A stretch of DNA of 64,000 bases, taken from NCBI RefSeq assembly GCF_018919395.1, contig NZ_JAHLME010000003.1:1-64000 (forward strand), read 5' to 3'. Under the pieces are notes generated by a model. The model saw only the letters and a program-made list of their open reading frames with translations, had not been told where the DNA came from and did not search any database. This document shows positions 7,709-36,776 of this stretch, piece after piece. The position numbers and the translations under genes were made by a program. Source of the stretch: Geomonas azotofigens. GTDB taxonomy: Bacteria > Desulfobacterota > Desulfuromonadia > Geobacterales > Geobacteraceae. Each line of letters opens with the position of its first letter. Within the stretch, counting starts at the first letter, position 1.

Positions 7709-8170
7709 ATGATTTCTAAAAAGACTAAATATGGCCTGAAAGCCCTCATCTACCTTGCTCGCCAGTACGAGCAGGGACCGATCCTGATTGCGGACCTTGC
7801 TCGGGACGAAAACATCCCGAAGAAGTTTCTGGAAGCCATCCTGCTTGCCCTGAAAAACAGTGGCATCCTGCAGAGCCGGAAAGGGAAGGGGGGCGGCTAC
7901 TACCTGGGCCGCTCACCCAGGCAGATTACCATGGGGCAGGCCATCCGTGTCATGGAAGGTCCCCTCGCTCCGGTTCCCTGCGTCAGCGAGTCCGCGTACG
8001 CGAAGTGTACCGAGTGCGGCAACGAGAACACCTGCGGCATCCGGCTGGTCATGAAGGACGTGCGCGACGCGATCGCCCAGATCCTCGACAACACTACCCT
8101 AGCCGATGTGCTGGAGCGCATCGACCACGCCGAACAGTCTGAAAAGAACGTCATCGATTTTTGTATCTAG
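7709..8170 (+). CDS. Rrf2-family transcriptional regulator of the sulfur cluster
   Basis: 153-residue winged-helix regulator of the Rrf2 family (relatives: IscR, CymR). N-terminal wHTH (MISKKTKYGLKALIYLA, then PKKFLEAILLALKNSGIL and the wing KGKGGGYYLGRS). After it come four cysteines, PCVSESAYAKCTECGNENTC, spaced C-x8-C-x2-C-x5-C. IscR uses three cysteines for an Fe-S cluster, while the cysteine-metabolism regulator CymR does not, so a cluster or metal here is possible. It precedes the sulfate-binding protein gene, and similar 15-bp sites occur at its own promoter and at three sulfur operons. Inference: local sulfur-status regulator. Confidence 0.88.
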   Translation: MISKKTKYGLKALIYLARQYEQGPILIADLARDENIPKKFLEAILLALKNSGILQSRKGKGGGYYLGRSPRQITMGQAIRVMEGPLAPVPCVSESAYAKCTECGNENTCGIRLVMKDVRDAIAQILDNTTLADVLERIDHAEQSEKNVIDFCI

Positions 8171-8200
8171 CACGGCAACACTTTTTTTTGCCTTTAAAAT

Positions 8201-8215
8201 CTATCAAATCTGTAG
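8201..8215 (+). promoter_or_regulatory. Rrf2-type operator before the sulfate-binding protein gene
   Basis: CTATCAAATCTGTAG followed by ACTAA, matching CTATAAAACTTATAG-ACTAG at 32829 and CTATAAAAATTGTAG-GCTAA at 18205. It sits only 12 bp before the AGGAG site of the gene. A weak TTGCCT/TGTAGA promoter (8189 and 8211) would place the operator over the -10 box, consistent with repression. Confidence 0.6.
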
Positions 8216-8239
8216 ACTAACCAGAAAAGGAGAATGGCC

Positions 8240-9232
8240 ATGAAAAGATTCATCCGCACCGCTTTTGTCACACTGCTCACCGCAGCACTGCCCCTCACCG
8301 CCTTCGCGGCACAGGAGTTCCTCAACGTCTCGTACGATCCGACTCGCGAGCTGTACCAGGACTTCAACAAGGCTTTCGCCAAAAAAGGGCACTCGAACGT
8401 CACCTTCAAGCAGTCCCACGGCGGCTCCGGAAAGCAGGCCAGGGCGGTGATCGACGGCCTCGAGGCCGACGTGGTCACGCTGGCGCTGGCCTACGACATC
8501 GACGAGATCAGCGACAAGGCGAAGCTCCTCCCGGCCGACTGGCAGAAGAGGCTCCCGAACAACAGCTCTCCCTACACCTCGACCATCGTCTTCCTGGTGC
8601 GCAAAGGTAACCCGAAGCAGATCAAGGACTGGAACGACCTGGTGAAGCCGGGCGTCGCCGTCATCACCCCGAACCCCAAGACCTCCGGCGGCGCGCGCTG
8701 GAACTACCTCGCGGCCTGGGCCTACGCCCTGAAGCAGAAAGGGGGCAACGAGGCCAAAGCGAAGCAGTTCGTGTCCGAGCTCTTCAAGCACGTGCCGGTG
8801 CTCGATTCCGGCGCACGCGGCGCCACCACCACCTTCGTGCAGCGCGGCCAGGGCGACGTGCTCCTCGCCTGGGAAAACGAGGCCTTCCTTGCGGTGAACG
8901 AACTGGGCAAGGACAAGTTCGAGATCGTGGTGCCGTCGGTGAGCATCCTGGCCGAACCGCCGGTCTCCCTGGTTGACAAGGTGGTCGACAAGAAGGGAAC
9001 CAGGAAGCTTGCCGAGGAGTACCTGAAGTACCTCTATTCGCCGGAAGGGCAGGAGATCGCAGCCAAACATTACTACCGTCCGCGTGACAAGAAGGTGGCG
9101 GCGAAGTATGCCAAGGTGTTCCCCAAGGTGAAGCTCGTCACTATCGACGACACCTTCGGCGGCTGGCGCAAGGCACAGAAGACCCATTTCGCCGACGGCG
9201 GCGTGTTCGATCAGATCTACAGCGCAAAGTAG
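8240..9232 (+). CDS. sbp: Periplasmic sulfate-binding protein
   Basis: Substrate-binding protein of the sulfate/thiosulfate ABC importer. A signal peptide ([19 protein letters not shown], cleavage near AFA-AQ) is followed by the family motifs [69 protein letters not shown] and [26 protein letters not shown] chose ATG 8240 because AGGAG lies seven bases upstream; the ATG at 8234 is too close. The matching permeases and ATPase (cysTWA) are not adjacent but lie at 15.4-18.2 kb, beyond six inserted genes. Confidence 0.93.
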
Positions 9233-9428: not shown

Positions 9429-9504
9429 GTCATCAGCAGGAACCCCGGCGGCGCCCGAGAGGCCGCCGCCGGAGATACATCAATTCCCGAAACAACCTGT
9501 CGCC

Positions 9505-9563
9505 GACCAGACAAACTGGAGGCCAGGCCGTAACCGGATGCACGGTTATGCCTGGCCTTTTTT
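9505..9563 (+). ncRNA. Leader RNA element, copy 1 (hairpin plus terminator) before metK
   Basis: GACCAGA-N3-ACTGGAGGCC begins the element. A small hairpin CCAG-ACAAA-CTGG is followed at once by a strong hairpin GGCCAGGC...GCCTGGCC and six T residues, a textbook intrinsic terminator. The metK start is 36 bases further on. Copies at 18321 and 32916 share the small hairpin and the GGCC clamp, while the terminator stem changes with compensating bases. I know no Rfam family with this pattern. Confidence 0.75.
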
Positions 9564-9598
9564 GTTGCCGCCGGCCAGTTCCAGAGGAGGAAGCACCC

Positions 9599-10807
9599 AT
9601 GTCCAAGCAGCGATTTCTGTTCACCTCCGAATCCGTCACCGAGGGGCACCCCGACAAGCTGGCGGACCAGGTTTCCGACGCCATCCTCGACGCCTTGCTC
9701 GCCCAAGATCCCCATGCCCGTGTGGCCTGCGAGACCAGCGTGACGACTGGGCTTGTGCTGCTGTTCGGCGAGGTCTCCAGCTCGGCCCAAGTCAACTTCG
9801 CCCGCATCGCCCGGGACACCATCGCCCAAGTCGGCTATACCGACGCGAAGTACGGCCTGGATGCGGAACATGCCGCGGTCCTGGTTTCTCTGGACCAGCA
9901 GTCGGCCGACATCGCCCAGGGGGTAGACGTCGCGCTGGAGCAGAGAAAGGGGGCGGAGCACGACGGGTACCTCGACTCTGTGGGGGCGGGGGACCAGGGG
10001 ATGGTCTTCGGCTTTGCCACCGACGAGACCCCCGAATACCTTCCCACCAGCATCGCCCTGGCCCACAAGCTGGCCCGGCGGCTCACCGAGGCGCGCAAGT
10101 CCGGCGAGCTTCCCTACCTGCGCCCCGACGGCAAGACCCAGGTAACCGTGGAATATGAAGGGGATGTTCCTGTCCGGGTGGACACGGTGGTCATCTCGGC
10201 CCAGCACGACCCGGAGGTGGAGCTCGAACAGATCCGCGCCGACCTGATCGCAAAGGTGATCGGGCCGGTGATCCCCGAGGCGCTCCTGGACGCGCAGACC
10301 CGCATCTTCGTCAACCCGACCGGTCGCTTCGTCATCGGCGGACCGCACGGCGACGCCGGCCTCACCGGCAGGAAGATCATCGTGGACAGCTACGGCGGCT
10401 TCTCGCGCCACGGCGGCGGCGCGTTCTCGGGCAAGGACTCCACCAAGGTGGACCGCTCCGGCGCGTACGCGGCCCGCTACGTGGCGAAGAATCTGGTCGC
10501 TGCGGGGTTGGCAAAGAAGGTCGAGGTCCAGATCGCCTACGCCATCGGCGTCGCCCGCCCGGTCTCCATCTTCGTCGACAGCTTCGGGACCGGGGCCTTG
10601 GCCAACGAGGAACTGGCCGGACTGATCGCGCGCCACTTCGACCTGCGGCCTGCTGCCATCATCGAGCAGCTCGACCTCAGGCGTCCCATCTACCGCGACA
10701 CGGCAGCCTACGGCCACTTCGGCAGGCTCGATCTCGATCTCCCCTGGGAGCGGACCGACAAGGCCGATCTCTTGCGTCAGGCGGCGCGCGGCGTGGCGGT
10801 CAGCTGA
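9599..10807 (+). CDS. metK: S-adenosylmethionine synthetase
   Basis: Makes SAM from methionine and ATP. Family signatures are complete: [20 protein letters not shown] (near residues 12-31), [36 protein letters not shown] and [20 protein letters not shown]. 402 residues, normal for the family. AGAGGAGG precedes the ATG. It sits behind leader RNA copy 1 and before nifH-like genes, an unusual place for metK. SAM is needed by the NifB protein encoded nearby, and methionine could accept a methyl group released by the corrinoid methyltransferases; both links are inference. A second housekeeping metK may exist elsewhere. Confidence 0.95.
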
Positions 10808-10907: not shown

Positions 10908-11735
10908 ATGGCCGGACAACATCTCATCATCGTAGGGAAAAGCGGCGTCGGCAGGTCCACCGTCGCGGCCAATGTGGGCGCCGCCCTGGCGGAAACGGGG
11001 CGCCGGGTGCTGCTGATCGGTTACGACAACCACAGGAGCTCGGCGGGCAACCTGAGCGGAGGCAGCGAACTGAAGGCGCTGCCGGTCTGGGGGCACGGGG
11101 AGGAGCCACCCCTTTATGCACGTGGCTACCGCGGCGCCCTCTGCCTGGAAGCGGGGGGAGGCGTTGCGGAGGACGAAGCCGCGCAGGCGGCTCTTTTGGA
11201 CCACCCCCTGGTCGAGGCTTACCAGCCGGAGTTCGTGCTGCATGATTTGGCCTGGGAGCCCGGCGGCACCTTCCGGCTCCCGGCGGGGATCGACGGCGTG
11301 GCCAGCGTCCTGGCGGTCACCTCCGCCGACCGTTGCGCACTGCAGGCGGTGAACCGGCTCTTCGGCTGGCTCAACACGGTCGCGGCCGCCAACACCAGGC
11401 TGGGAGGCGTGGTGGCCAACAACCTGACGGGGCCGCTGCAGGAGGCGATCGTGTCGGATTTCGCGGGGCAAACTGGGGCTTCGGTCACGGCGACCATCCC
11501 GCACTCCATCATGGTTTCGGTAAGCGACTTCTATAGCCAGACGCTGCTCGAGTCCGCGCCCTTCTCCCACGTCACCTACGCCTACCGCAAGCTGGCCAGA
11601 ACGCTGGTAGAGGCGGCGACGCAGCGCCGTCCCCGGCAGCTCGACGACGATGCCATGAAGAAGTGGTCCGGCAAGTGGGGTGACATCATAGCCGAACTCG
11701 AGACAGGCGTGGTGAACGGCGGACTCGGGATCTAG
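10908..11735 (+). CDS. Degenerate NifH-like protein lacking the Fe-S cysteines
   Basis: 275 residues, clearly NifH-derived: similar length and similar C-terminus to the canonical copy at 12281 ([20 protein letters not shown] against [20 protein letters not shown]). The key features are altered. The P-loop is GKSGVGRST (residues 10-18; the second lysine is Arg16). The region that holds Cys98 in the neighbour reads [14 protein letters not shown], and the second ligand region [12 protein letters not shown] reads [11 protein letters not shown]. Both [4Fe-4S] ligands are therefore gone. It cannot be a normal nitrogenase-type reductase; it may be a regulatory or assembly partner. Good ribosome site (AAAAGGAGG). 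The frame is intact and codon use is like its neighbours, so it is unlikely to be decaying. Confidence 0.85.
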
Positions 11736-11752
11736 ACAAGGAGGATGCCGAG

Positions 11753-12192
11753 ATGGCACGCATTTATGACAGCCTTACCGAGCTGATCGGAGCCACGCCC
11801 CTGCTGCGCCTGAACCGTTTCGCAGCCGGTATCGGGGCGGAAGTCCTGGCCAAGCTGGAAGCCTTCAACCCCGGAGGGAGCGTCAAGGACCGCATCGGCT
11901 ACGGCATGCTCATCGAGGCAGAAAAGCAGGGACTCATCGACCGCGATACCGTCATCATCGAGCCCACCAGCGGCAACACGGGCATCGCGCTCGCCATGGT
12001 GGCGGCGGCGCGCGGCTACCGGCTGGTGCTCGCCATGCCGGATTCGATGAGCGTCGAGCGTCGCAACCTGCTCAAGGCCTACGGGGCCGAACTGATACTT
12101 ACCCCGGTGCGGATGGGATGAAGGGGGCCATCAAGAAGGCCGAGGAGATCGCCGCTTCCGAGCCGGGACGCTATTTTATCCCGCAGCAGTGA
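11753..12192 (+). pseudogene. Broken cysteine synthase copy
   Basis: The first 120 codons match the full cysK at 18976 closely ([34 protein letters not shown] with the PLP lysine, [20 protein letters not shown]). At about 12105-12120 small deletions relative to the intact copy shift the frame and give a TGA at 12119. Another frame carries the similarity on ([13 protein letters not shown]...FIPQQ) to a stop near 12192, where the match ends. Everything downstream, including the C-terminal half of the enzyme, is missing. It lies between the two nifH-like genes, so it is probably a relic of duplication. Confidence 0.85.
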
Positions 12193-12280: not shown

Positions 12281-13159
12281 ATGTCCGGCAAAAAAGTGAA
12301 AACCATCGCCATCTACGGCAAGGGGGGGATCGGCAAGTCCACCACCACCTCCAACATCAGCGCGGCGCTCGCGGCCTCGGGGCTTAGGGTGATGCAGATC
12401 GGCTGCGACCCCAAGAGCGACTCCACCACCACGTTGCGCGGCGGAGGCTACATCCCGACCATCCTCGACACCCTGCGCGAGAAGAAGAATGTGAAGCTTG
12501 ACGAGGTGGTGTTCCGCGGCTTCGCCGGCATCTACTGCGTCGAGGCGGGCGGACCCGCCCCGGGTGTCGGCTGCGCCGGCCGCGGCATCATCACCTCGGT
12601 GGAACTGTTGAAGCAGCTGCGCGTCTTCGAGGAGCTCGATCTCGACATCGTGGTCTACGACGTCCTCGGGGACGTGGTCTGCGGCGGCTTCGCGGTGCCG
12701 GTGCGCGAGGGGATCGCCGACCATGTCTTCACGGTTTCCTCCTCGGACTTCATGGCCATCTACGCGGCGAACAACCTGTTCAAGGGGATCCAGAAGTACT
12801 CCAACAACGGCGGTGCGCTCCTGGGCGGGGTGATCGCCAACTCCATGAACTCCGATTACCACAAGGCGATCATCGACGATTTCGTGGAGAACACCCAGAC
12901 CCGGGTGGTCGAGTACGTGCCCCGTTCGGTTACCGTGACCCAGTCCGAACTGCAGGGGAAAACCACCATCGAGGCCTTCCCCGACTCGGAGCAGGCCAAG
13001 GTGTATCGCGCCCTCGCGGACAGGATCTACCACCATACCGACTCCAAGGTGCCCGCACCGCTGAACGACAAGCAACTGCACGAGTGGGCCCTCAAGTGGG
13101 CAGACACCCTGCTCGCCATCGAGACCGGCGAAGTGAGAAGCAGCGGCGCCAGCATCTAG
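12281..13159 (+). CDS. NifH-like ATP-dependent [4Fe-4S] reductase
   Basis: 292-residue homodimeric iron protein that would pass electrons, with ATP hydrolysis, to the NifDK-like complex at 25.4-28.2 kb. P-loop [10 protein letters not shown] (13-22), GCDPKSDST, and both cluster ligands are present: Cys98 in [12 protein letters not shown] and Cys134 in [23 protein letters not shown] before the ATG. By sequence alone it could belong to nitrogenase or to a nitrogenase-like enzyme; the neighbours (sulfate transport, cysteine synthase, corrinoid methyltransferases) and the absence of nifEN here favour a MarH-like role in organosulfur reduction. Confidence 0.92.
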
Positions 13160-13188: not shown

Positions 13189-14022
13189 ATGGCGACTTCA
13201 TGCACGAGGGAAAAGGTACTGCATGGGCACCCATGCTTCGGCGGGAACCGGCACAAGAACGGTCGCATGCACCTGGCCGTGGCGCCGCGCTGCAACATCA
13301 AGTGCGGCTATTGCGATAGAAGGCACGACTGTGCCAATGAGTCGCGTCCCGGGGTGACCAGCAGGCTCCTTACCCCGCCGGAGGCGCTGGAGCGGGTGCG
13401 CGGCGTCATGGCCAGCTCTTACGGCCCACTGATCAAGGTCATCGGCATTGCCGGGCCGGGAGATCCTCTGGCCAACGAAGAGAGCTTCGAGACATTCCGG
13501 CTGGTGCAGCGAGAGTTCCCGGATTTGCTGTTCTGTCTGAGCACGAACGGGCTGGCGTTACCCGAGCGCGTCGAGGACCTTTCTATCGTCAACCTGCATA
13601 GCCTTACCGTCACCATCAATGCCGTTGACCCGGAGGTGGGAGCCCGAATTTACCGGGAGGTCCGGTACCGCGGCTGCGTCCTGCGTGGCGCTGAGGGGGC
13701 TGAAATCCTGATCCGGAACCAGTTTGAGGGGGTGCGCCTTGCCGCACAGCTCGGCATGGTGGTCAAGGTGAACACGGTACTCATCCCTGGGATCAACGAG
13801 GAGCAGATCCCGCTTATCGCACAGAAGGTGAGCGATGCGGGAGCTTTTGTCATGAACGTGATGCCCATAATTCCGCAGGCAGACCTCGCCCACGTCCCCC
13901 GCCCGACCCCGGAGCACCTGGAACAGGTCCGGTCTGCCAACGAAGCCACCATCGCACAGTTTCGCGGCTGTCAGCAGTGCCGCGCCGATGCGGTCGGCCT
14001 CATCGGCGGCTGCGCCGGATAA
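13189..14022 (+). CDS. NifB-like radical SAM protein (NifB-co synthesis)
   Basis: Radical SAM enzyme that builds the carbide-containing Fe-S core (NifB-co) used by nitrogenases. The NifB signature is plain: HPCFG (14-18), VAPRCNIKCGYCDRRHDC (31-48, with the CxxxCxxC of Cys35, Cys39, Cys42), ANESRPGVTS, and the C-terminal CQQCRADAVGLIG. 277 residues, the short form without a NifX-like domain; a separate NifX-like protein is encoded at 18614. Ribosome site GGGGAGGGGAG. In the described Mar system a NifB-like MarB serves the same purpose. Its presence argues that the NifDK-like complex carries a complex Fe-S cofactor rather than a simple [4Fe-4S] cluster. Confidence 0.92.
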   Translation: MATSCTREKVLHGHPCFGGNRHKNGRMHLAVAPRCNIKCGYCDRRHDCANESRPGVTSRLLTPPEALERVRGVMASSYGPLIKVIGIAGPGDPLANEESFETFRLVQREFPDLLFCLSTNGLALPERVEDLSIVNLHSLTVTINAVDPEVGARIYREVRYRGCVLRGAEGAEILIRNQFEGVRLAAQLGMVVKVNTVLIPGINEEQIPLIAQKVSDAGAFVMNVMPIIPQADLAHVPRPTPEHLEQVRSANEATIAQFRGCQQCRADAVGLIGGCAG

Positions 14023-14097: not shown

Positions 14098-15183
14098 ATG
14101 AGTGCTGGCGCCTGGAAAGAAACCATGTCCTCCCGGGAGCGGACCGTAGCGGCCCTGACCGGAAAGCCGTACGACCGGATCCCGGTAAACCTGTTGATCA
14201 GCGACCATGCCGCCCGTGTCATCGGCGTCAGCGTCGGCGACTACAACAACTCGGAGCACCTTATGGCCAAAGGGCAGATCGCCGCCTGGCGCAGTTACGG
14301 CGCCGACAACGTCAACACCGGGCCTGGGCTCACGGGGGTGGCCGAGGCGATAGGGAGCAAGGTCGTCTTCCCGGACAGCACGCCCTACATCGCTCACAAC
14401 GTGGTGGTCGACGAGTCGTCGCTCGACACCCTGCGCGTCCCGGACCCGGAGAACGACGGGCGCTTACCGCTCTTCCTGGAGGCGGCGACGCTGGTGCTCA
14501 AAGAGATCGGCGATCAGGTGCCGCTGACGATGACCTGTGCCGGTCCCTTCACCACAGCCGCCGGCATCCGCGGCACCGCACCGTTCCTGCGGGACCTGCG
14601 CAAGAACCCAGCCTTTGCGCACCGCCTGCTACGGCTCTCGACCGACAGTATCATCCGCTTCGCGAAGGCGGCCCTCGAACGTGGCGCCAGCATCGGTCTC
14701 GCCGATCCGACGGCTTCGGGGACCATGGTCTCCTCAGCGCTGTTCAAGGAGTTCGCGTTCCCCTACCTGCGCCAGCTCTGCTCGGCGGTCCGCAACGAGT
14801 GCGGCGCCGCACCGTCGCTTCACATCTGTGGCAATACCACAAGGATCTGGCGCGAGATGGCGGATACCGGCGCATCGGTGCTGAGTCTTGACGATGCCGT
14901 CGATCTTGCCGACGCCAAGGCGGAGGTAGGCGGGCGAGTGGCCCTTCTTGGCAACGTCAAGCCCACCGCCGCCATGTACCTCGGCACGCCGGGCGACGTA
15001 ACACGTAACGCGAAGGAGTGCATCGCCAAAGGGTGGGACAACCCGAAGGGGTACATCCTCGGCCTTGGCTGTGGGCTCCCCATCGACACGCCGCCCGCCA
15101 ATATCCATGCCCTGGTTGCCGCGGCCAAGACCTATGGGCGGTGGCCCCACGATGCCACGGCCGCGGCTAAGGAGGTGTTATAA
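14098..15183 (+). CDS. UroD-fold corrinoid methyltransferase (MtaA/MtbA-like), copy 1
   Basis: 361-residue member of the uroporphyrinogen decarboxylase/MtaA superfamily. Zinc-ligand pattern: HICG (SLHICGNTTRIW) and a later cysteine in LGCGLPIDTPPANIHAL, as in methyl-cobalamin:thiol methyltransferases, which bind a thiol at Zn. True UroD lacks these. It is one of three such paralogues in the cluster (also 28908 and 30108). Likely role (inference): methyl transfer between a methylated thiol or thioether, the corrinoid protein at 28243 and an acceptor. Alternative ATG codons exist at 14098 and ten codons inside (MSSRERT). Confidence 0.85.
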   Translation: MSAGAWKETMSSRERTVAALTGKPYDRIPVNLLISDHAARVIGVSVGDYNNSEHLMAKGQIAAWRSYGADNVNTGPGLTGVAEAIGSKVVFPDSTPYIAHNVVVDESSLDTLRVPDPENDGRLPLFLEAATLVLKEIGDQVPLTMTCAGPFTTAAGIRGTAPFLRDLRKNPAFAHRLLRLSTDSIIRFAKAALERGASIGLADPTASGTMVSSALFKEFAFPYLRQLCSAVRNECGAAPSLHICGNTTRIWREMADTGASVLSLDDAVDLADAKAEVGGRVALLGNVKPTAAMYLGTPGDVTRNAKECIAKGWDNPKGYILGLGCGLPIDTPPANIHALVAAAKTYGRWPHDATAAAKEVL

Positions 15184-15302: not shown

Positions 15303-15389
15303 CTAGTCCACTATTCCGATGGATTTATTATGCATAGGTTGGGCGATGCCCCTGCGCCAATGCAGATCCGACGATTAACAGGGGGGACC

Positions 15390-16220
15390 ATGGCCTGGTC
15401 AGGCAGGAAAAACAACGTGTTGCCCGGATTCACTCCGGCGCTCGGCTACACCATCTTCTACCTGAGCCTCGTCGTGCTCATCCCACTCTCCGCGCTCTTC
15501 TTCAAGACCGCATCTCTCAGCTGGGACGCCTTTGTCGCAGCGGTCACCGCGCCGCGGGTGCTCGCTTCCTACCGGGTTACCTTCGGTTCCTCGCTTGCCG
15601 CTGCACTCATCAACGCGTTCTTCGGGGTACTGGTGGCCTGGGTGCTGGTCCGCTACCGCTTTCCAGGTAAAAAACTGATCGATGCCCTCGTGGACCTTCC
15701 GTTCGCCTTGCCGACCGCCGTGGCCGGCATCACCCTCGCCAGCATCTACTCGCAAAATGGCTGGCTGGGGCGCTACCTGGAGCCGCACGGCATCAAGGTC
15801 GCCTTCACCCCGCTTGGCATCGCGGTCGCCATGGTCTTCATCGGCCTCCCCTTCGTGGTACGGACGGTCCAGCCGGTGCTGGAGGAGCTGGACCAGGAAA
15901 TCGAGGAGGCCGCCTCCTGCCTCGGCGCCAACCGGTGGCAGACCTTTCGCCGGGTGCTTTTGCCGACCATGCTCCCCGCCATTCTCACCGGCTTCGCCCT
16001 TTCCTTTGCGCGTGCCGTCGGGGAATACGGCTCCATCATCTTCATCGCCGGCAACATGCCGATGGTCTCCGAGATCACCCCGCTGCTCATCATCACCAAA
16101 CTGGAGCAGTACGACTACGCCGGCGCGACTGCCATCGCGACCGTCATGCTGGTGGTCTCCTTCGTCATGCTGCTCTGCATCAACCTGTTGCAGAAGTGGA
16201 GCAGGCGGTTCGCGGAATAG
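15390..16220 (+). CDS. cysT: Sulfate ABC transporter permease CysT
   Basis: Inner-membrane permease of the sulfate/thiosulfate importer. 276 residues, six membrane helices, with the ATPase-docking EAA loop [21 protein letters not shown] near residue 170-190. I chose the ATG at 15390 (GGGGGG upstream); the frame is open further 5' without a ribosome site. First gene of cysT-cysW-cysA behind its own promoter. Confidence 0.93.
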
Positions 16221-16249
16221 ACGGGCTTCGGCGCCGGGAGGGTTAGGAC

Positions 16250-28908: not shown

Positions 28909-29954
28909 TGAGCCGTGACCAGATGACACCGCTTGAGCGCCTGGCGGCCTACGGCGCCGGCGCGCCCATCGACCGGCTCCCCTGCGTTCCCATTGTGGGG
29001 AACACGGCGGCGCGGGTGATCGGCGTGAAGGTCGGGGACTTCCGTGGCAACGGTGCGTTGATCGCACAGGCACAGGTAGCAGCCTACCGGCTCTTCGGCT
29101 ACGACATCATCAGGATCTTTACCGACCTCTACACCCAGGCGGAGGCGATGGGGGCCAAGGTGAGCTACCCGGAGGACGAGACGGCCTTTCTGGCCGCCCC
29201 GGCCATCACCGACTTGGCGGAACTGGATCGCCTGCGTCCCGCGGATCCTCAACGCGACGGGCAGTTGCCGCAGCACCTGGAGGCGATGCGCCGTGCGGTG
29301 GATCAAGTGGGGCACGAGGTGGCGGTGACCGGCGCGGTAACCTGCCCCTTCACCAACGCTTCCTTCCTGGTGGGAGCCGACAAGCTGGCGCGTCTCATGA
29401 TGCGCTCACCCGAGATGGTGCACCACCTGTGCGAGATTTCGCTGCAGACCAACATCGCCTATGCCGGCGCCATCATCGACGCCGGCTGCACGCCGAGCCT
29501 CACCGATGCCATGTCCTCCATGTCCGTGATCAGCCCGCGCCAGTTCAGAGAATTCTCGTTCCCGTACCTGAAGCGGCTCATCGACTATGTCCACGGGCGC
29601 GACAGGAAGGTCACGCTGCACATCTGCGGCAAGACCTCCGGCATATGGGAGGCGATGGTAGAGGCGGGTGCCGATTGCCTGAGTATCGACAACGATGCCG
29701 ACCTCGGCGAGGCGCGGATCGCGGTCGGCGACCGGGTGCGCCTGATGGGGAACGTGCATCCCTCCGAGGTCATGCTGCAGGGGATTCCTGACGCGGTACG
29801 CCGGGCGACGCTCTCGTGCCTCGCCCAGGCGAAGGACAGCCCCAAGGGGTTCATCGTAGCCTCGGGCTGCAGCCTCCCCACGGAAACCCCCTTCGCCAAC
29901 ATCCACGCCATGCTGGACACGGTGCGCGAGGCGGGCTGGCCGGTAAAAAACTGA
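28908..29954 (+). CDS. UroD-fold corrinoid methyltransferase, copy 2
   Basis: 348 residues, start overlapping the corrinoid gene stop (TGATG). Zinc ligands by pattern: LHICGKTSGIW and ASGCSLPTETPFANIHAM. Closest in sequence pattern to copy 1 at 14098 (NTAARVIGVKVGDF against DHAARVIGVSVGDY). Translational coupling to the corrinoid protein suggests that it is its main methyltransferase. Whether it methylates or demethylates the corrinoid cannot be told from sequence. Confidence 0.88.
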   Translation: MSRDQMTPLERLAAYGAGAPIDRLPCVPIVGNTAARVIGVKVGDFRGNGALIAQAQVAAYRLFGYDIIRIFTDLYTQAEAMGAKVSYPEDETAFLAAPAITDLAELDRLRPADPQRDGQLPQHLEAMRRAVDQVGHEVAVTGAVTCPFTNASFLVGADKLARLMMRSPEMVHHLCEISLQTNIAYAGAIIDAGCTPSLTDAMSSMSVISPRQFREFSFPYLKRLIDYVHGRDRKVTLHICGKTSGIWEAMVEAGADCLSIDNDADLGEARIAVGDRVRLMGNVHPSEVMLQGIPDAVRRATLSCLAQAKDSPKGFIVASGCSLPTETPFANIHAMLDTVREAGWPVKN

Positions 29955-30107: not shown

Positions 30108-31139
30108 ATGAGCCTCAGCCCCAAAGAGCGGTTGCTCGACACGCTAGGTAAAAAGAAGGTCGACCGGCCGCCGGTCGTCTGCACCGGCGGCATGATGAAT
30201 GCCGCCATCGTCGATGTCATGAACCGCACCGGGCACACCCTGCCGGAAGGGCACTTCCGGTCCGACCTGATGGCCGAACTTGCCACCGACGTCAACCACG
30301 ACACCGGCTTCGAGAACTTCGGCATCCCGTTCTGCATGACCGTGGAGGCCGAAGTGCTCGGCAGCGAGATCGACTTCGGCACCCTGGCCTGCGAACCCAA
30401 GATCGCGCGTGAGCCTTTCGTCTCGAATGCCCAGGTGCAGTTTCGCGACATAGACAGGATGCTCGACTCAGGACGTATCGGTCAGGTTGCCGAGGCGGCC
30501 TTGCTCTTGAGTCGCTCCAACCCCGACGTGCCTGTCATTGGCAGCATCACCGGCCCGGTCAGCACCGCAGCCTCGATCGTCGACCCCATGATCTTTCTGA
30601 AGGAGCTGCATAAAAAACGGGAAGATTCCCACCGCGTGCTCGACTACGTGAGCGACTTCCTCATCTCGTTCGCCCGCCTGCTGGTCGACGGCGGCGCCAG
30701 CGCCATCTGCATCGGCGACCCGACCGCCACCGGCGAGATTCTCGGGCCGCGCCTGTTCCAGGAGTACGCCGTCACCTACCTGAACAAGGTCATCGACGGC
30801 ATTCACGCCACCGGCGTCCCGGTCCTGGTGCACATCTGCGGCGAGATGAAGGCGGTCAAGCCCTCCATTCCTCAACTGCACAGCGACGCCATCAGCACCG
30901 ACGCCTTCGTGAACCTGAAGCTCCTGAAAGAGGAATACCCGCAGCTCACCACCATGGGGAACCTGAGCACCTTCCTTCTGGAGCTCGGGGAGCCGGATAA
31001 GGTCTCGCGCCATACGGCGGGACTCGTGCGCGACGGCATCGACATCATCTCCCCCGCTTGCGGGCTGAGCACCGCCTCCTCGATCAGGAACATCCAGGCC
31101 ATGACCCAGACGGTGAAGGACGGAGGGCGCGGATGGTAA
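30108..31139 (+). CDS. UroD-fold corrinoid methyltransferase, copy 3 (MtbA-like)
   Basis: 343 residues with LVHICGEMKAVKPS and ISPACGLSTASSIRNIQAM, the zinc-ligand pattern of thiol-binding methyltransferases. More divergent from copies 1 and 2 than they are from each other (SITGPVSTAASIVDP, GDPTATGEILGPRLFQEY are MtaA/MtbA-like). ACAGGAG before the ATG; its stop overlaps the next start (ATGGTAA). Probably the second half-reaction of the methyl transfer. Confidence 0.88.
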   Translation: MSLSPKERLLDTLGKKKVDRPPVVCTGGMMNAAIVDVMNRTGHTLPEGHFRSDLMAELATDVNHDTGFENFGIPFCMTVEAEVLGSEIDFGTLACEPKIAREPFVSNAQVQFRDIDRMLDSGRIGQVAEAALLLSRSNPDVPVIGSITGPVSTAASIVDPMIFLKELHKKREDSHRVLDYVSDFLISFARLLVDGGASAICIGDPTATGEILGPRLFQEYAVTYLNKVIDGIHATGVPVLVHICGEMKAVKPSIPQLHSDAISTDAFVNLKLLKEEYPQLTTMGNLSTFLLELGEPDKVSRHTAGLVRDGIDIISPACGLSTASSIRNIQAMTQTVKDGGRGW

Positions 31140-32806
31140 CGGTTGTATTTCTTCCCGACGATAAACACGCCACGGTCTCCAAGGGCTCGACCATCCTGGA
31201 GGCCGCCCGTGCAGCCGGAGTGACCATCGATTCCCCCTGCAACGGCGCGGTGGTCTGCGGCAAGTGCGCGGTGACCCTGCCTTCCCACAACCTCGACAAG
31301 GTGGTCGAAAAAGGAGCGCACCGGCTTCCGGCGGGAGAAAGGAGCCGCGGGCAGGTGCTTGCTTGCGCAGCCGAGGTCCACGGCAACATCGCGGTGCTGG
31401 TTCCCGAGGGGCCTTCGCTGCGTGATTTCAAGATCGCCAGCCACGGTGAGGCTTGCACTGTCGATCTCTCCCCGCACATCGTCAAGGAGTACCGGCCGGA
31501 TCTGGGCGTGACGCGCGTGCTGGGCGGCGGAGCACTCCTGACCGAAGAGGAGGGCGATACCGCCGGCGAGAGCTTCGGCGTAGTGGTCGACATCGGCACC
31601 ACCACCCTCGTGGTCGCGCTGGTGGACCTGACAACCGGGACTCAACTGGCGGCCGCTTCGTCCCTCAACCCGCAAAGCCGCCACGCCCAGGACGTGCTGT
31701 CGCGCATTAAAATAGGGTCGGAAGAGCGCGGGCTGGAGGAGTTGCGAAGTGGCGTCATCGGCGAAATCAATGCCCTGATCGACCAGGTCGCGGGGACGGC
31801 TGGAGTACGCCGGGACCGTATCTACGAGGTGATCTTCAGCGGTAACACCTGCATGTTGCACTTGGCCGCCGGGGTCGATCCGGCGCCGCTTGGCAGGTAT
31901 CCCTACACCTCTGCGCTCACCTGCGCCGCCTGGCTCCCTGCGCAGGCAACAGGAATAGATATCGCCCACGGCGGGCTGATCTACCTTCCGCCGATCATCT
32001 CAGGCTACATCGGCGCCGACATCACGGCGGGCCTGCAGGCGGTCCGCCTGCACGAAAGCACGGAAACAGTGCTGTTCGTGGATATCGGAACTAACGGCGA
32101 GATGGCTTTGTGCCGCGACGGTAAGATTTGGGCCACCTCCACCGCCGCCGGCCCCGCCTTCGAGGGTATGAACATCCGCTTTGGCATGAGGGCAGGGGAG
32201 GGGGCGATCGAGCGTTGCAGCTTCCAGCCAGACGGCACCCTGGAAATCAGGACCATCGCCGGGGCGGAGGCTGTCGGCATCTGCGGGTCGGGCCTGATGG
32301 ATATAGTCGCCGAGCTTGTGGCCCACGGCCTGGTGGGAAAAAACGGCAAGTTCGTCAAGCCGGACGCGGCCGCAATTCATCCGAAGCTGGCCGAGCGCCT
32401 GGTGGAGCGGGATGGCAAGCCGTCGTTCCTGCTCACCGAGAAAGTCTGGTTGACCCAAAAGGACGTGCGCCAGGTGCAGCTCGCCAAGGGGGCGATCCGG
32501 GCCGGGGTGGAATTTCTGCTGCGCGAGGCCTCGGTCCCAGTAGCGGAACTGCAGCGGGTCCTGATCGCCGGCTCTTTCGGCTACCATCTGACCGCCGACA
32601 GCCTGACCACCATCGGACTCTTGCCGGCCGGCACCTCCGGGCGGATCAGGTTCGTCGGCAACACCGCCAAAAGCGGAGGGGAAGCGTTCCTCCTCAACGC
32701 CGTCTCGCGCCGGGAGATGAGCGATCTGGTCGAGCAGGTGCAGGTCGTGGAGTTGGCCAACTGCAAGGACTTTGACAAGGTTTTCGTGGAAGCACTTTCC
32801 TTTTGA
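31133..32806 (+). CDS. RACo-like corrinoid activator (2Fe-2S plus ASKHA, DUF4445)
   Basis: 557 residues. N-terminal ferredoxin domain with a 2Fe-2S pattern: Cys36, Cys42, Cys45 (PCNGAVVCGKC) and Cys78 (VLAC). From about residue 145 an ATPase of the ASKHA class begins (VVDIGTTTLVVALVDL), with FVDIGTNGEMAL and AGSFGYHL later. Such proteins reduce Co(II) corrinoids back to Co(I) using ATP. The ATG at 31133 has GGAGG upstream and overlaps the previous stop. It completes a corrinoid methyltransferase system: carrier, methyltransferases and reactivator. Confidence 0.92.
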   Translation: MVTVVFLPDDKHATVSKGSTILEAARAAGVTIDSPCNGAVVCGKCAVTLPSHNLDKVVEKGAHRLPAGERSRGQVLACAAEVHGNIAVLVPEGPSLRDFKIASHGEACTVDLSPHIVKEYRPDLGVTRVLGGGALLTEEEGDTAGESFGVVVDIGTTTLVVALVDLTTGTQLAAASSLNPQSRHAQDVLSRIKIGSEERGLEELRSGVIGEINALIDQVAGTAGVRRDRIYEVIFSGNTCMLHLAAGVDPAPLGRYPYTSALTCAAWLPAQATGIDIAHGGLIYLPPIISGYIGADITAGLQAVRLHESTETVLFVDIGTNGEMALCRDGKIWATSTAAGPAFEGMNIRFGMRAGEGAIERCSFQPDGTLEIRTIAGAEAVGICGSGLMDIVAELVAHGLVGKNGKFVKPDAAAIHPKLAERLVERDGKPSFLLTEKVWLTQKDVRQVQLAKGAIRAGVEFLLREASVPVAELQRVLIAGSFGYHLTADSLTTIGLLPAGTSGRIRFVGNTAKSGGEAFLLNAVSRREMSDLVEQVQVVELANCKDFDKVFVEALSF

Positions 32807-32888: not shown

Positions 32889-32915
32889 TTCCCCCACAGT
32901 TCAATAGTGGTGGCT

Positions 32916-32976
32916 GACCAGAGACACTGGAGGCCAGGCAAGTACGGTGATGACACCGACTCGCCTGGCCTTTTTT
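32916..32976 (+). ncRNA. Leader RNA element, copy 3 (hairpin plus terminator)
   Basis: CCAG-AGACA-CTGG hairpin (loop differs from copies 1 and 2), then GGCCAGGC...GCCTGGCC with an inner CGGTG/CACCG stem and six Ts. It begins about 20 nt after the predicted transcription start and ends 26 bp before the next ATG, so it would stop the transcript unless relieved. Confidence 0.75.
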
Positions 32977-33002
32977 ATTTCCCACAGAAAAAGGAGCACG
33001 AG

Positions 33003-34037
33003 ATGAGATCTGCATGGAAAAGATTGCTGTTGCTAGCCGTTGCCGCCCTAGGATTATCGGCGCAGGCTGACGCTGCCGTTGCGAAGACGAAGCTGAAAGT
33101 CGGCTACGCTCCGGGAGGGGGCAGCGTGCTCACCTTCTTGGCACAGGACCAGAAGCTGTTCGAGAAGGAAGGCGTCGAGGTGGAACTGGTACAGTTCGCC
33201 AGCTCCTCCGACGGGCTCAACGCGTTGAACAGCGGCAAGATCGACATCGGCATCTCCTTCGGCACCGCCGGACCGCTCACCTTCATCTCAAAGGGGAGCG
33301 ACTTCTCCATCATCGGCGGGCACCTCTCCGGCGGTCACCCGGTGATCGCGCTCCCGGAGAAGGCGCAGAAGATCAAGACCATCGGCGACTTCCGCGGCAA
33401 GACCGTGGCCACGCCGCGCATCTACACCGCGGACATCGTCTGGCGCGGCGCCTTGAAGCGTGCCGGTCTCGATCCCGAGAAGGATGTAAAGATCATTGAA
33501 CTGAAGAATCCGGCAGCCGTGCTGGAGGCCGTGAAGGCGGGCAAAGCGGACGTCGGAATCGGCGCCTCCTCGATTCTGTTGAAGGCCAAGGAGTCGGGCG
33601 TGGTGGTGGTCGGCTGGAGCAACTACTTCTTCCCGCAGCACCCCTGCTGCCGCATCGTGGCCAAGGGGAAGGCGGTGAAGGAGGATCCCGAGACTTATCG
33701 CGCTTTCCTCAGGGCGATCCTGCAGGCCGAGAAGATCAAGACCGAGAAGCCCGAGCTGGCCGTTGACGTCAACAAGCGCTACCTGAACCTCGACGACAAG
33801 ATGGCCCGCGAGTTCACCCTGGAACCGCACCAGGAGACCCATGCCGACCCGAATCGTAAAGGGGTCACCAGGATGTGGCATGACATGAAAAGCATCGACT
33901 ACGTGGAAGGGGATATCGACCTGAACCGCTACGTGAACGTGGATCTCTACCGCGACGCCTTGAAGGAACTGCAGCGGCGCAATCCCAAGGACAAGTTCTA
34001 CCGCGAGGCGAAGAGACGCTTCGAACGTCAGAACTGA
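33003..34037 (+). CDS. NitT/TauT-type substrate-binding protein C
   Basis: 344 residues with signal peptide (MRSAWKRLLLLAVAALGLSA). Same family and plan as the proteins at 21563 and 22624: LKVGYAPGGGSVLTFLAQDQKLFEKEGVEV, ALNSGKIDIGISFGTAGPL, AVLEAVKAGKADVGIG and the cysteine pair HPCCRIVAK. AAAAGGAG upstream. First gene of the operon after leader RNA copy 3. Confidence 0.9.
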   Translation: MRSAWKRLLLLAVAALGLSAQADAAVAKTKLKVGYAPGGGSVLTFLAQDQKLFEKEGVEVELVQFASSSDGLNALNSGKIDIGISFGTAGPLTFISKGSDFSIIGGHLSGGHPVIALPEKAQKIKTIGDFRGKTVATPRIYTADIVWRGALKRAGLDPEKDVKIIELKNPAAVLEAVKAGKADVGIGASSILLKAKESGVVVVGWSNYFFPQHPCCRIVAKGKAVKEDPETYRAFLRAILQAEKIKTEKPELAVDVNKRYLNLDDKMAREFTLEPHQETHADPNRKGVTRMWHDMKSIDYVEGDIDLNRYVNVDLYRDALKELQRRNPKDKFYREAKRRFERQN

Positions 34038-34048
34038 GGCGCATCATC

Positions 34049-34810
34049 ATGGTTGCACAACTGATCAAACGATACAGCGGCCCGGCGGTGGTAATCCTGC
34101 TGCTGGTGCTGCTCTTCGAGGCAGCCACCGACTGGTCGGGCTGGCTTGAGCCGGTGTTGTTCCCCGGTCTTTCGAAGATCCTGCCCGCCTTCGGCAAGTC
34201 CCTGCCCAAACTGGTCCTGGGCTTTGGCAACTCCATGGGGATGCTGGTGCCGAGCTACTTCCTGGCGCTGGCGCTGGGCGTCGGCGGCGGCTTGGTGGTC
34301 GGCTCCTCGAACTTTTTGCGCGGGCTGCTCATGCCGGTCTTTCGCGGGGTGAGCCCGATTCCGCCCACCATGCTGATCCCGTACGCCATCGCGGTGCTGC
34401 CGACCTTCTGGCTCTCCTCCGCCTTCATCATCTTCGCAGGCGCTTTCTGGCCGATCCTGATGGGGACTATCCACGGCGTGGTTCATCTGGAGGAGCGCTA
34501 CATAGAAAACGCCAGAACCTTGGGGCTCGGCGGCTTCCGGCTTTATCGCAAAGTCATCCTCCCCGGCGCCCTTCCGATGATCTTTAGCGGGGCCGGGATG
34601 GCGCTGGTCTTCAGCTTCATCCTGTTGACCGTCGCCGAGATGTTCGGCGCCAAGTCGGGCATGGGGCACTTCATCCAGTACAACGCGGATTTCTCCGACT
34701 ACCCGAAGGTGCTGGCCGGCATGCTCTTCATGTCGCTGGTCATCATCTTGATTATGGAACTGTTCGACCTTGTGCAGCGCCGCGTGCTGCACTGGACCGG
34801 CAAACGCTGA
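34049..34810 (+). CDS. NitT/TauT-type ABC permease
   Basis: 253 residues, six-helix permease. Docking loop ENARTLGLGGFRLYRKVILPGALP. No ATPase gene is present in this operon, so it may use the ATPase at 19942. Follows the binding protein by 11 bp; the ribosome site is weak. Confidence 0.88.
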   Translation: MVAQLIKRYSGPAVVILLLVLLFEAATDWSGWLEPVLFPGLSKILPAFGKSLPKLVLGFGNSMGMLVPSYFLALALGVGGGLVVGSSNFLRGLLMPVFRGVSPIPPTMLIPYAIAVLPTFWLSSAFIIFAGAFWPILMGTIHGVVHLEERYIENARTLGLGGFRLYRKVILPGALPMIFSGAGMALVFSFILLTVAEMFGAKSGMGHFIQYNADFSDYPKVLAGMLFMSLVIILIMELFDLVQRRVLHWTGKR

Positions 34811-34821
34811 CGAGGCAACCG

Positions 34822-36195
34822 ATGAGCGCTAACAACGACACCAGCAAGTCCCTGTTTGAAAACGAGATCCCCAAGTGGGGCGAGCCCTATCCGCGGAAGC
34901 TGGACCGGCAGTCCGTTCTGGAGGCACTGACCGATTACATCCTAGGCGTCAACTATCGCGGCTACCGTCCCGACTTCCGCAAGGTGCTTGCGGTACGCAG
35001 CAGCGACCGCACCGCGACCCTGCGCAACTTCGCGGCGCCATTGCGGCAGGAGGTGTACTACTTCATCGAAGGGGAGATCTTCCCCGAAGCAGGGACGACC
35101 AAGTTGGGAGAGGGGGAGAGCCCCGTCGAACTTGCCTCCCGGCTTTTGGATGAGGTCTTCGAGCAGCTCTATATCTGGGTGGCCTATGATCTCACCAAGG
35201 GCTCCCCTCCTGGATTCCGCAAGCCATTCGACCATCCCCCTGTCGTAAAGGGATCTCAGTACGCCAATCCGGAGCAGGTGACACGGGATGCTGCTCGCCG
35301 CGAAGGGGTAAATCCCGGCTTCTACCTTCCCGATCCGGCACCGCTGTCCACGGCGGAAGCGGTGGGGGACGACGATATCGTGCTTGAGGAAGTGCTGAAC
35401 CATGTGACTCAGTTGGTGCGGACGGACTTCCGCAACGCGCTCCCTGAAGGGGAAAACCCACCCATCTGGGACCTCCCCCTGATTGGCGTTGCCTCAGTCG
35501 AAGATCCGCTGTTCGAGCGCTTCCAGGACCCGGAGGTGGTGGGTCCCATGCACCGGCTGCCGCAGGAGTGGCTTCCCGGTGCGCGTTCCATCATCAGCGT
35601 CTTTCTTCCCTTCACCGGGCACATCACCGAGCACTACGCCAAGGATCAGCGCTTCTCGGCCATAGAATTTTCCTCCGGGAAATGGAACGGCTCGAAGTTC
35701 CTTAACGTGGTGCGCCGCTCCCTGATCCGTTTCGTTGAGCGCCACGGCGGGAGGGCGGTCGCGCCCAACATCGACCCGCGTTACGATTCCGACGACTGGC
35801 GTCCCTTCTGGTCCGAGCGGCACACAGCTTTCGCCGCCGGTCTGGGAACCTTCGGTCTGCACCAGAACTTTATCTCCGAAAAGGGGGCGCTCGGGCGCCT
35901 CTGTAGCGTCATCACCGACCTCAAGCTAACCCCGACGCCGCGCCCTTACACCGACGTCTACCACTACTGTCTTTACGCTTTCGACGGGAGTTGTGACGCC
36001 TGCATCAGGCGCTGCCCGACGGGAGCGATAACCAGTACCGGCAAGATCCCGGGGCGTTGCGAGACCCACGGCAACAAGGAACACTTTGCCGCCTGGAACT
36101 ACGGTTCGTGCGGGCACTGTTCCACCCTTATCCCGTGTGCCCGTGAGATTCCACCTAAGATCAGGAAAACCCTTTCCCTCAAGCCGCGGCCGTGA
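34822..36195 (+). CDS. QueG/reductive-dehalogenase-like Fe-S protein
   Basis: 457 residues. The C-terminal half resembles the catalytic region of epoxyqueuosine reductase and corrinoid reductive dehalogenases (WSERHTAFAAGLGTFGLHQNFISEKGALGRLCSVITD, about 330-366), followed by Fe-S ligands: Cys391, Cys394, Cys398-Pro, and Cys413, Cys430, Cys433, Cys439. The N-terminal 210 residues match nothing I know. No signal peptide. In a cluster full of corrinoid and organosulfur genes it could be a cobalamin-dependent reductase or an electron donor; it is unlikely to be the tRNA enzyme QueG because of its length and N-terminus. Confidence 0.65.
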   Translation: MSANNDTSKSLFENEIPKWGEPYPRKLDRQSVLEALTDYILGVNYRGYRPDFRKVLAVRSSDRTATLRNFAAPLRQEVYYFIEGEIFPEAGTTKLGEGESPVELASRLLDEVFEQLYIWVAYDLTKGSPPGFRKPFDHPPVVKGSQYANPEQVTRDAARREGVNPGFYLPDPAPLSTAEAVGDDDIVLEEVLNHVTQLVRTDFRNALPEGENPPIWDLPLIGVASVEDPLFERFQDPEVVGPMHRLPQEWLPGARSIISVFLPFTGHITEHYAKDQRFSAIEFSSGKWNGSKFLNVVRRSLIRFVERHGGRAVAPNIDPRYDSDDWRPFWSERHTAFAAGLGTFGLHQNFISEKGALGRLCSVITDLKLTPTPRPYTDVYHYCLYAFDGSCDACIRRCPTGAITSTGKIPGRCETHGNKEHFAAWNYGSCGHCSTLIPCAREIPPKIRKTLSLKPRP

Positions 36196-36233
36196 CCGGA
36201 TAATCCGCTGTCACCGCCGTATCAGGAGCATAT

Positions 36234-36776
36234 ATGGCGACAGCAGCAATCAGTGTCAGCAAGTACTTGGAGTTTTTTAGGAAGAAAGAGGTGCGCTCGG
36301 TCCTCGATTACGGTGCAGGCACCCTGCGCAATTCGGCCTTCATGGCCGAGGCGGGTTTCAGGGTCTACGCCGCGGACCTGCCGGTGCAAGTGGCGCGGAT
36401 CATGAAGATGGTGAGCGCCAAGAAGTTGGCCGGTGTTCTCAATGTGGATGAGTTGACAGATGGCAGGCTAGATGTGGATCTCGTGCTTTCCAGCTACGTG
36501 TTGAATATCATCCCGGATGGCACGGAGAAGAGCCGGTATCTCAAGAACATCGTCCTCAACCTGCGCCCGGAAGGTTACCTCCTGGTGGAGGTGAGGTGCC
36601 GGGCTACCGCGCCGCAGTGCAGCAGCGGCTGCGCTCACGGCACGAGGTGCCCGAACTGCATCAAGACATACTCGCACCAGGAACTAGATCAACTGGTTGA
36701 GTCGCAAGGCTTCAGGCGCGTGAGCCACTACTACCGTCGTCATTCCGTTGCTGTGCTTTATCAGCGATCCCATTAG
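36234..36776 (+). CDS. Class I SAM methyltransferase with Cys-rich insertion
   Basis: 180 residues. SAM site SVLDYGAGTLRNSAFMAEAG (residues 22-41) and the strand-4 segment DVDLVLSSYVLNIIP. An unusual cysteine group lies between residues 122 and 142 (Cys122, 129, 133, 139, 142; CAHGTRCPNC), probably a zinc or Fe-S site. Last gene of the operon started at 33003. Substrate unknown; methylation of a thiol or of a metal-bound group is conceivable. Confidence 0.7.
   Translation: MATAAISVSKYLEFFRKKEVRSVLDYGAGTLRNSAFMAEAGFRVYAADLPVQVARIMKMVSAKKLAGVLNVDELTDGRLDVDLVLSSYVLNIIPDGTEKSRYLKNIVLNLRPEGYLLVEVRCRATAPQCSSGCAHGTRCPNCIKTYSHQELDQLVESQGFRRVSHYYRRHSVAVLYQRSH

Follow-up and report, generated by a model that had tools for sequence, protein, structure and literature searches.

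The window analysed here is a 64,000-nucleotide stretch of the Geomonas azotofigens genome (contig NZ_JAHLME010000003.1, positions 1 to 64,000). Between positions 7709 and 36776, the outer ends of the first and last open reading frames concerned, protein family scans annotate a cluster of 29 genes, every one on the + strand. The cluster contains a nitrogenase-like reductase, NflHDK, and a corrinoid (vitamin B12) arm for methyl transfer, and three of its operons start with the same leader RNA element. On balance, sequence comparison favours the view that this is an organosulfur-scavenging system within a sulfur-responsive regulon, with NflDK and the corrinoid arm probably working together. A preliminary description of the stretch had listed NifH-like, NifB, NifX, NflD/NflK and corrinoid proteins, three UroD-fold methyltransferases, RACo, CysK, MetK, sulfate transport genes and two importers with SsuA-type proteins, and each of these gene classes was borne out by the family scans.

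In the pathway that we propose, importers of the SsuABC type would take up a small organosulfur compound, and NflH would pass ATP-driven electrons to NflDK. NifB would build the [Fe8S9C] cluster of NflDK, and NifX would carry it. Judging from its kinship with Mar, NflDK would reductively cleave a C-S bond. The zinc UroD methyltransferases would then move the methyl group of the methylated thiol produced, most simply methanethiol, to the corrinoid protein, which RACo would keep active; sulfide would pass to CysK and the methyl group to another thiol. If this is true, anaerobes can turn methylated organosulfur into sulfide and cysteine using vitamin B12 along with an iron cluster of the nitrogenase type, which bears on the turnover of dimethyl sulfide and methanethiol in anoxic habitats. 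The preliminary description knew of no account of this coupling, but it is already in print, as a proposal only, in the preprint PMC10418091 (Kountz & Balskus). There, group IV-A MarHDK-like genes are reported to be prevalent within or close to type I mlp clusters of the non-selenium kind, MarHDK is suggested as a possible supplier of a methyl-sulfide donor, and CysK is named in a figure legend.

Relationship of NflHDK to Mar

NflH (12281-13159) is a MarH-type Fe protein (TIGR01287, 402 bits), and NflD (25361-26893, starting at the ATG that its conserved N-terminus sets) and NflK (26886-28229) match PF00148 with 273 and 226 bits. Among proteins of solved structure, MarHDK of Rhodospirillum rubrum (PDB 9FMG, to which 9D9U is a near-identical entry; PMC12552129) is the best match of all three, with 477 bits for H (chain 9fmg_D) against 285 for the next best, 229 against 128 for D, and 291 against 98 for K. 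The kinship with Mar put forward in the preliminary description is thus upheld, although membership in Mar itself is not. In a 77-row tree of D proteins, the window NflD falls in a 45-row clade with a Shimodaira-Hasegawa-like approximate likelihood ratio (SH-aLRT) support of 99, and the Mar and Mar-like rows fall in another clade; the K tree agrees, placing the window NflK in a 20-row clade with a support of 100. A smaller D tree of 34 rows supports the window side at 89/89, which is not strong, and sets both the window side and Mar apart from Nif at 100/100. Approximately unbiased (AU) tests, for which the groups were picked after the tree had been inspected, reject a grouping of the window protein with Mar (p 1.1e-6), with all rows that have Arg-His in loop I (p 2.9e-63) and with Nif (p 0.0064). 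The pair therefore stands outside the nitrogenases in these tests, in both D trees and in the K tree, as the first interpretation of the cluster needed it to; the nitrogenase NifDK/EN genes of the same genome lie about 0.93 Mb off on the same contig. BchN and BchB also fall outside the window clade, but on long branches with weak support and in a tree without CfbD, and NCBIfam scores for tetrapyrrole reductases are far below their cut-offs.

MarD positions for the P-cluster cysteines, Cys270 and His429 are given in PMC12552129, where Arg428 is described as a possible hallmark. The window NflDK has all six P-cluster cysteines, three in D and three in K; the three of D are kept in every row of the window clade but one (L143), and Cys270 and the loop-I ligand histidine at position 429 are kept in 45/45 rows of the multiple alignment; the pairwise NflD-MarD alignment sets the histidine one residue off. 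Loop I reads Gly-His in 45/45 window-clade rows, with Arg428 deleted, versus Arg-His in 13/13 Mar and Mar-like rows, and in the pocket of the window NflD His194 is replaced by Ile and Cys73/Gln74 by Ala/Met. Since the ligands are kept and the pocket is changed, NflDK should hold the clusters of Mar in a different pocket. On these comparisons NflDK is best described as a Mar-like sister clade and not as a Mar, and its conserved ligands suggest that it carries a P-cluster and an [Fe8S9C] cluster. The likeness to R. rubrum MarBHDK extends to a NifB-type maturase, a NifB/MarB-type radical SAM (S-adenosylmethionine) protein with a CxxxCxxC motif and without a NifX domain (13189-14022, the real start near 13189 being read from sequence; TIGR01290, 305 bits). 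Unlike R. rubrum MarDK, the window-type NflDK commonly has CysK and corrinoid methyltransferases beside it. A sister clade with the same cluster ligands and another pocket offers a natural comparison for how a protein steers [Fe8S9C] away from N2. The predicted AlphaFold model of NflD is of too low quality for a structural search (mean predicted local distance difference test score, pLDDT, 61.6).

The neighbouring SsuABC-type importers raise the question of whether NflHDK reduces sulfonates in the manner of isethionate reductase (Isr), as an Ssu importer for organic sulfur also adjoins the group IV nitrogenase-like IsrBHDK of Rhodobacter capsulatus (PMC11423573). According to that paper, IsrD is without two of the three P-cluster cysteines and the cofactor cysteine, IsrDK lacks the ligands of complex clusters, and IsrB is not close to NifB. 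The window NflD, in contrast, keeps all of the cysteines that Isr has lost and has a NifB-like partner, which makes an Isr-like activity highly improbable.

Two more clades of NflD were found, one with a Cys-Pro loop and one with an altered P-cluster that resembles the published description of Isr. Several different NflDK pairs may lie within about 30-60 kb of one another, forming super-clusters in G181 (L036/L156), G159 (L157-L159) and G199 (L075/L160/L161); in G199, NflD genes of other loop types adjoin a Mar sensu stricto that scores 876 bits against MarD. A plasmid of Chlorohelix allophototropha (L177) carries NflHDK of the Cys-Pro type with NifB, NifX, importers and MetY. MarDK-like pairs have been reported in heliobacteria (PMC9147875), and a comparison of NflK with viral contigs found no relative.

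Co-location of the corrinoid arm with NflDK

The corrinoid arm comprises a carrier protein with a DxHxxG motif (28243-28908; TIGR02370, 217 bits, over cut-off), three UroD-fold methyltransferases (UroD1, 14098-15183, MtaA_CmuA 192 bits; UroD2, 28908-29954, MtaA_CmuA 205 bits; and the MtaA/MtbA-like UroD3, 30108-31139, NF004889 379 bits, over cut-off) and a RACo-type reductive activase (31133-32806, start read from sequence; PF14574 233 bits, PF17651 182 bits). A His-Cys-Cys zinc site, which PMC10418091 ties to methyl transfer to or from sulfur or selenium, is present in 3/3 of the UroD proteins. With a corrinoid protein, an activator of the Ram/RACE kind and at least two Mlp-like UroD proteins bearing this site, the cluster has the gene content of a type I mlp cluster; it shares the UroD site, corrinoid protein, RACE activator and MarHDK-like genes with the non-selenium clusters of that preprint, the likeness to group IV-A being by description. 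As in type I mlp clusters, no tetrahydrofolate methylase was among the families found in the cluster scans. The window differs from the clusters as described there in a host that has tRNA-Sec and SelA, and in adding NifX, importers, a DUF1847 protein, a QueG-like protein, sulfate genes and the leader RNA.

Homologues of UroD3 and RACo lie within 20 kb either side of NflD in 16 of 20 orthologous neighbourhoods, two of which (G137, G139) give no match to the corrinoid protein and one of which (G247) has no UroD2 orthologue; in G249, G250, G252 and G257 they are not in these flanks, UroD3 of G257 lying about 25 kb away. Among 43 dereplicated NflD-clade loci, each flanked by 8 kb or more on either side and with neighbours counted within 10 kb, a UroD protein is near NflD in 26, a corrinoid protein in 20, RACo in 19 and all three in 17. 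As a control, stretches of 20 kb were taken arbitrarily from five of the genomes; none of these 20 holds the whole corrinoid module, and of the genes counted only the SsuB-like ATPase occurs in them (4/20). The co-location of NflDK with the corrinoid arm is therefore beyond chance. It is mirrored across 277 genomes of the class, where 22 carry both UroD3 and the NflD clade, 5 NflD alone, none UroD3 alone and 250 neither; this count uses a UroD3 threshold (E below 1e-100) fixed after the list had been seen, leaves out four UroD3 matches that fall short of it (39-41% identity, spread over 4 genomes of which three lack this NflD clade), and assigns NflD to the clade by identity (G199 and G246 by aligned rows). 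Within the genus of the window, 6 genomes have both and 13 have neither. Together with the leader RNA that the two share, location and genome-wide co-occurrence bear out the link between corrinoid arm and NflDK that the preliminary description had drawn.

A further UroD clade of 24 rows accompanies NflD in Bacillota, Planctomycetota, Synergistota, Spirochaetota and others; in 15 of these rows the UroD gene overlaps the NflD frame or lies upstream of it by no more than about 100 bp. In Geomonas a DUF1847 protein holds that place (24659-25315; PF08901, 208 bits), a family on which a literature search found no paper. Loci in which the additional clade abuts NflD include L099, L112, L132, L134, L136, L140, L144 and L147, among others.

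The arm might instead recycle methyl-selenides, as has been proposed for most type I mlp clusters. A tRNA-Sec gene (37047-37144, - strand) lies 270 bp past the last gene of the cluster, and the host genome encodes SelA (508 bits). However, tRNA-Sec is near the cluster in just 1 of the 20 neighbourhoods (for five, the scan covered just the downstream half), the named genes that follow the leader are sulfur genes, and PMC10418091 ties MarHDK-like genes to the non-selenium clade; we hold selenium salvage to be very unlikely.

CysK (18976-19905; TIGR01139, 477 bits) is the candidate acceptor of sulfide. It lies near NflD in 21/43 loci (CysK or MetY in 25/43), and is commoner where a corrinoid protein is present, in 14/20 loci versus 7/23 without (p 0.015), as the tie to CysK in the preliminary description leads one to expect. 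Beside the corrinoid module, CysK also outnumbers MetY, 14/20 against 2/20. This preference, together with an SsuB-like ATPase that is near-constant (39/43 loci) and an NflD active site that differs from that of MarD, could also point to the opposite order of steps, in which the UroD/corrinoid arm demethylates an imported S-methyl compound and NflDK then strips sulfide from the free thiol to give H2S for CysK. The ATPase also occurs in the controls, however, and the closest characterised enzyme, MarDK, frees methanethiol from methylthio compounds (PMC12552129); the opposite order seems to us improbable.

A third possibility follows the proposal of PMC10418091 that the corrinoid arm is a second branch to methionine, with NflHDK freeing a methylthio group derived from methylthioadenosine. 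The host genome has genes for MtnA (464 bits) and MetY (626 bits) outside the cluster, and metK follows one of the leaders; yet scans of the 29 annotated cluster genes revealed no salvage gene, and NflD more often has cysteine synthase and importers beside it. Methionine salvage is thus an unlikely role for the cluster.

Several observations nonetheless weigh against a pathway that runs from NflDK through the corrinoid arm to CysK. UroD3 is missing from 5/27 NflD-clade genomes, so NflDK can work without it (three of the five belong to one genus, one has only NflD fragments and one merely a clade paralogue), and a single in-frame stop interrupts 4 of the 22 UroD3 matches. The Fisher test of co-occurrence (p 4e-28) treats related genomes as independent. 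Neither CysK nor MetY lies within 10 kb in 4/20 NflD loci that have a corrinoid protein, and since MetY is present elsewhere in the genome, methanethiol could pass straight to methionine. Finally, because the active-site residues of NflD are unlike those of MarD, its substrate may not be a methylthio-alkane.

A conserved leader RNA

A repeat search found one element common to three operon starts: before metK (element 1, 9493-9564), before the nifX-cysK-ssu-nflDK-corrinoid unit (element 2, 18309-18386) and before the unit that encodes the third substrate-binding protein, a permease and the QueG-like protein (element 3, 32904-32977). A 20-mer of the element, with 0 mismatches at element 1, has 3 matches in the window at up to 3 mismatches, versus 0.01 expected. 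Each copy, on the + strand, consists of a hairpin, P1 (GGC-TGA-CCAG-loop-CTGG-AG-GCC, with the core GACCAG-N4/5-CTGGAGG), and an overlapping terminator that ends in a T-run. The 3' side of P1 doubles as the 5' arm of the terminator, so the two structures exclude each other.

Both helices covary. In an alignment of 67 elements, changes on both sides of a pair occur in 78 terminator cells and 16 P1 cells, and 0/500 shuffles reach either count; the alignment takes in all but one of the 68 elements left after near-duplicate removal (the one left out, from L060, forms 6/9 terminator pairs), and because the 3' arm of the terminator was chosen by best pairing and T content, this test leans to pairing. 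The inner P1 stem is invariant in this set. A covariance model of the terminator only, R1, which scores the three window elements at 59.9, 63.6 and 62.5 bits, found 19 further elements (18 of them distinct) at 12 loci outside the model set, in Sporomusa, Pelosinus, Pelotomaculum, Anaerocolumna and others. Every cell (100%) of the inner P1 stem is paired there, and three of its four pairs show compensatory changes (CCAG/CTGG to TCAG/CTGA, CCGG/CCGG and CTAG/CTAG); 0/500 shuffles reach the observed count, although some rows come from close relatives, for which the shuffles do not correct. For P1, this second test is free of the arm-picking bias. Since both helices covary, and the inner P1 stem does so in elements found by a model blind to it, the alignments give good evidence that P1 forms an RNA helix. 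A DNA operator was also considered and is disfavoured: its half-sites stand at variable distances (mostly 4 or 5 nt), compensatory changes occur in both helices, and a terminator overlaps it.

In the attenuator that we propose for the three units, the helices are those supported by covariation, and we infer the direction of the switch and its signal: P1 would be stabilised at sulfur shortage, the terminator would be avoided, and RNA polymerase would read through. A 5' hairpin that excludes an intrinsic terminator is also the design of attenuator and riboswitch classes in Rfam 15, but no family there matched the leader in the scans made: at gathering thresholds, Rfam 15 finds only tRNA-Sec in the whole window, and no cis-regulatory match was obtained at the elements in 7300-37000 (E up to 5), at 6 loci (gathering) or at 12 loci (E up to 2). 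A literature search likewise found no description of the leader, though its coverage of subscription journals was thin and an earlier report is possible; PMC11109978 treats the Geobacter motifs yjbM and nifV, and the leader is not described in the available part of that paper. The leader is thus apparently an uncatalogued RNA element, conserved across Geobacterales and Bacillota, and a candidate for a new attenuator or riboswitch class.

The leader in other genomes and the genes that follow it

In the host genome, R1 finds three leaders, all within this cluster; a looser pattern adds one 2-mismatch match on another contig, and its reversed control gave equally many. The leader is found in 97/277 genomes of the class at E up to 1e-3 and in 70/277 at E up to 1e-8, a cut-off fixed after the list had been seen and applied to a search whose stricter filters lose weak matches. 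All 33 genomes with a non-nitrogenase NflD (178 bits or more) are among the 70, and the other 37 have no NflD. Leader matches of at least 35 bits occur in 32 of 80 named Nfl loci and not in the other 48, with the reservations that some of the 32, or their genomes, fed into the model and that many loci are short; 23 control loci gave just two partial terminator matches, below 20 bits. In Sporomusa (L101, L103, L107), divergent NflDK and UroD-RACo units each have their own leader copy.

We inspected the genes that follow the leader in 20 stretches, 18 of them from genomes without NflD. The first gene encodes MetK in one NflD-less relative (L233), rhodanese/3-mercaptopyruvate sulfurtransferase-like proteins in five stretches (L236, L238, L240, L247, L251), MetY in L243, an SsuB-like ATPase in L239, a NifH-like protein in L237 and uncharacterised proteins of 532-573 residues in L242, L248 and L250; in L245 an SsuBC-like importer begins with the second gene. 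L246 has a group II intron maturase after the leader, and L252 nothing clear. As the leader also heads other sulfur genes, it places the cluster in a sulfur regulon, and it predicts sulfur-responsive genes in Geobacterales, unknown ones included, even without the identity of the substrate.

Membership in such a regulon could by itself account for the layout of the cluster: NflDK and the corrinoid arm might act on different organosulfur substrates and be co-located through a shared response to sulfur limitation. The other sulfur genes behind the leader, the 5/27 genomes with NflD and without UroD3, and the recruitment of CysPTWA and MetK to the cluster in few lineages fit this account. Against it, UroD3 occurs without this NflD clade in 0/277 genomes, though 37 NflD-less genomes carry the leader, and the additional UroD clade abuts NflD in several phyla. 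We consider two uncoupled systems rather unlikely, and prefer the coupled pathway. A bolder version of that pathway, which we put forward only tentatively, is that the leader belongs to a new class of small RNAs that regulate in cis in Geobacterales and Bacillota, perhaps a sulfur-metabolite riboswitch, and marks out a regulon for sulfur starvation; in it, a new [Fe8S9C]-reductase clade and the corrinoid arm would turn methylated organosulfur into sulfide for cysteine.

In one stretch (L241) the leader precedes a DrsE protein and then an SrpI-like type 2A encapsulin, and L244 and L249 have the same layout by gene length; the position of the leader before encapsulin genes suggests sulfur-regulated compartments in Geobacterales. 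In a Geomonas relative that lacks NflDK (G174; L234, L235), a cluster remnant stands behind the leader, consisting of nflH2-nifB-uroD1-cysTWA and fragments that match nifX and the QueG-like gene.

Remaining genes and flanking features

The host genome measures 4.97 Mb, and the nearest named relatives by NflD identity (96-98%) are Geomonas anaerohicana, G. edaphica and G. propionica. The cluster opens with an Rrf2-family regulator (7709-8170; TIGR00738, 117 bits, over cut-off) that is CymR-like (99 of 195 bits, below cut-off) and a CysP/Sbp sulfate-binding protein (8234-9232; NF008022, 542 bits). MetK (9599-10807, start read from sequence; TIGR01034, 572 bits) is the second copy of the genome, the other lying on contig C15, and the CysT, CysW and CysA genes of a sulfate importer occupy 15330-18197. 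Although MetK follows the leader both here and in the NflD-less relative, neither it nor sulfate uptake is a widely conserved member of the cluster. MetK is found in 1/20 orthologous neighbourhoods, cut by the edge of the stretch examined, CysTW in 6/20 (five of the window's genus and G187) and CysP in 5/20 (three of the genus, G159 and G187), with a CysT homologue also in one named locus (L130); with so few neighbourhoods having them, both were dropped as conserved parts of the pathway.

Between metK and nflH lie a degenerate NifH paralogue (10908-11735; nifH, 106 bits), in which the P-loop is present and both [4Fe-4S] cluster cysteines are gone, and a truncated, frameshifted CysK copy (11753-12121) that covers positions 2-112 of the cysKM model (length 299) and is a 75% repeat of the cluster's cysK. 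The pair (10908-12121) is a decaying or repurposed duplication, retained in other Geomonas at 66-89% identity.

A sigma-70-like site (18237-18265) lies 5' of leader element 2, but two such sites per 18 kb compare with 3.1 expected by chance. The NifX-type cofactor-binding protein follows (18374-18964; PF02579, 61 bits, residues 92-185); its listed start falls within the leader element, so the true start should be further downstream. An SsuABC/nitrate-type importer (19942-24637) comprises an ATPase, a short substrate-binding protein, two full substrate-binding proteins and a permease, and a second importer behind element 3 (33003-34810, start read from sequence) has an SsuA-type binding protein and a permease. 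The last two genes encode a QueG/reductive-dehalogenase-like Fe-S protein (34822-36195; QueG 39 bits and reductive dehalogenase 25 bits, both below cut-off), whose predicted AlphaFold model is likewise of too low quality for a structural search (mean pLDDT 49.3), and an S-adenosylmethionine-dependent methyltransferase (36234-36776; PF13489, 46 bits).

Being near the cluster in a single one of the 20 neighbourhoods, five of them scanned over their downstream half, tRNA-Sec was dropped as a functional partner. It may mark the insertion site of an island, although among the repeats of at least 18 nt listed for 1-37400 there is no direct repeat of it at the island end. Upstream of the cluster, at 1767-4105 on the - strand, a reverse transcriptase matching Drt8 (539 bits) stands beside a PDDEXK partner (222 bits), forming an anti-phage pair of the defence-associated reverse transcriptase (DRT) type; it lies in a stretch of 42% GC and adjoins an IS200-like transposase.

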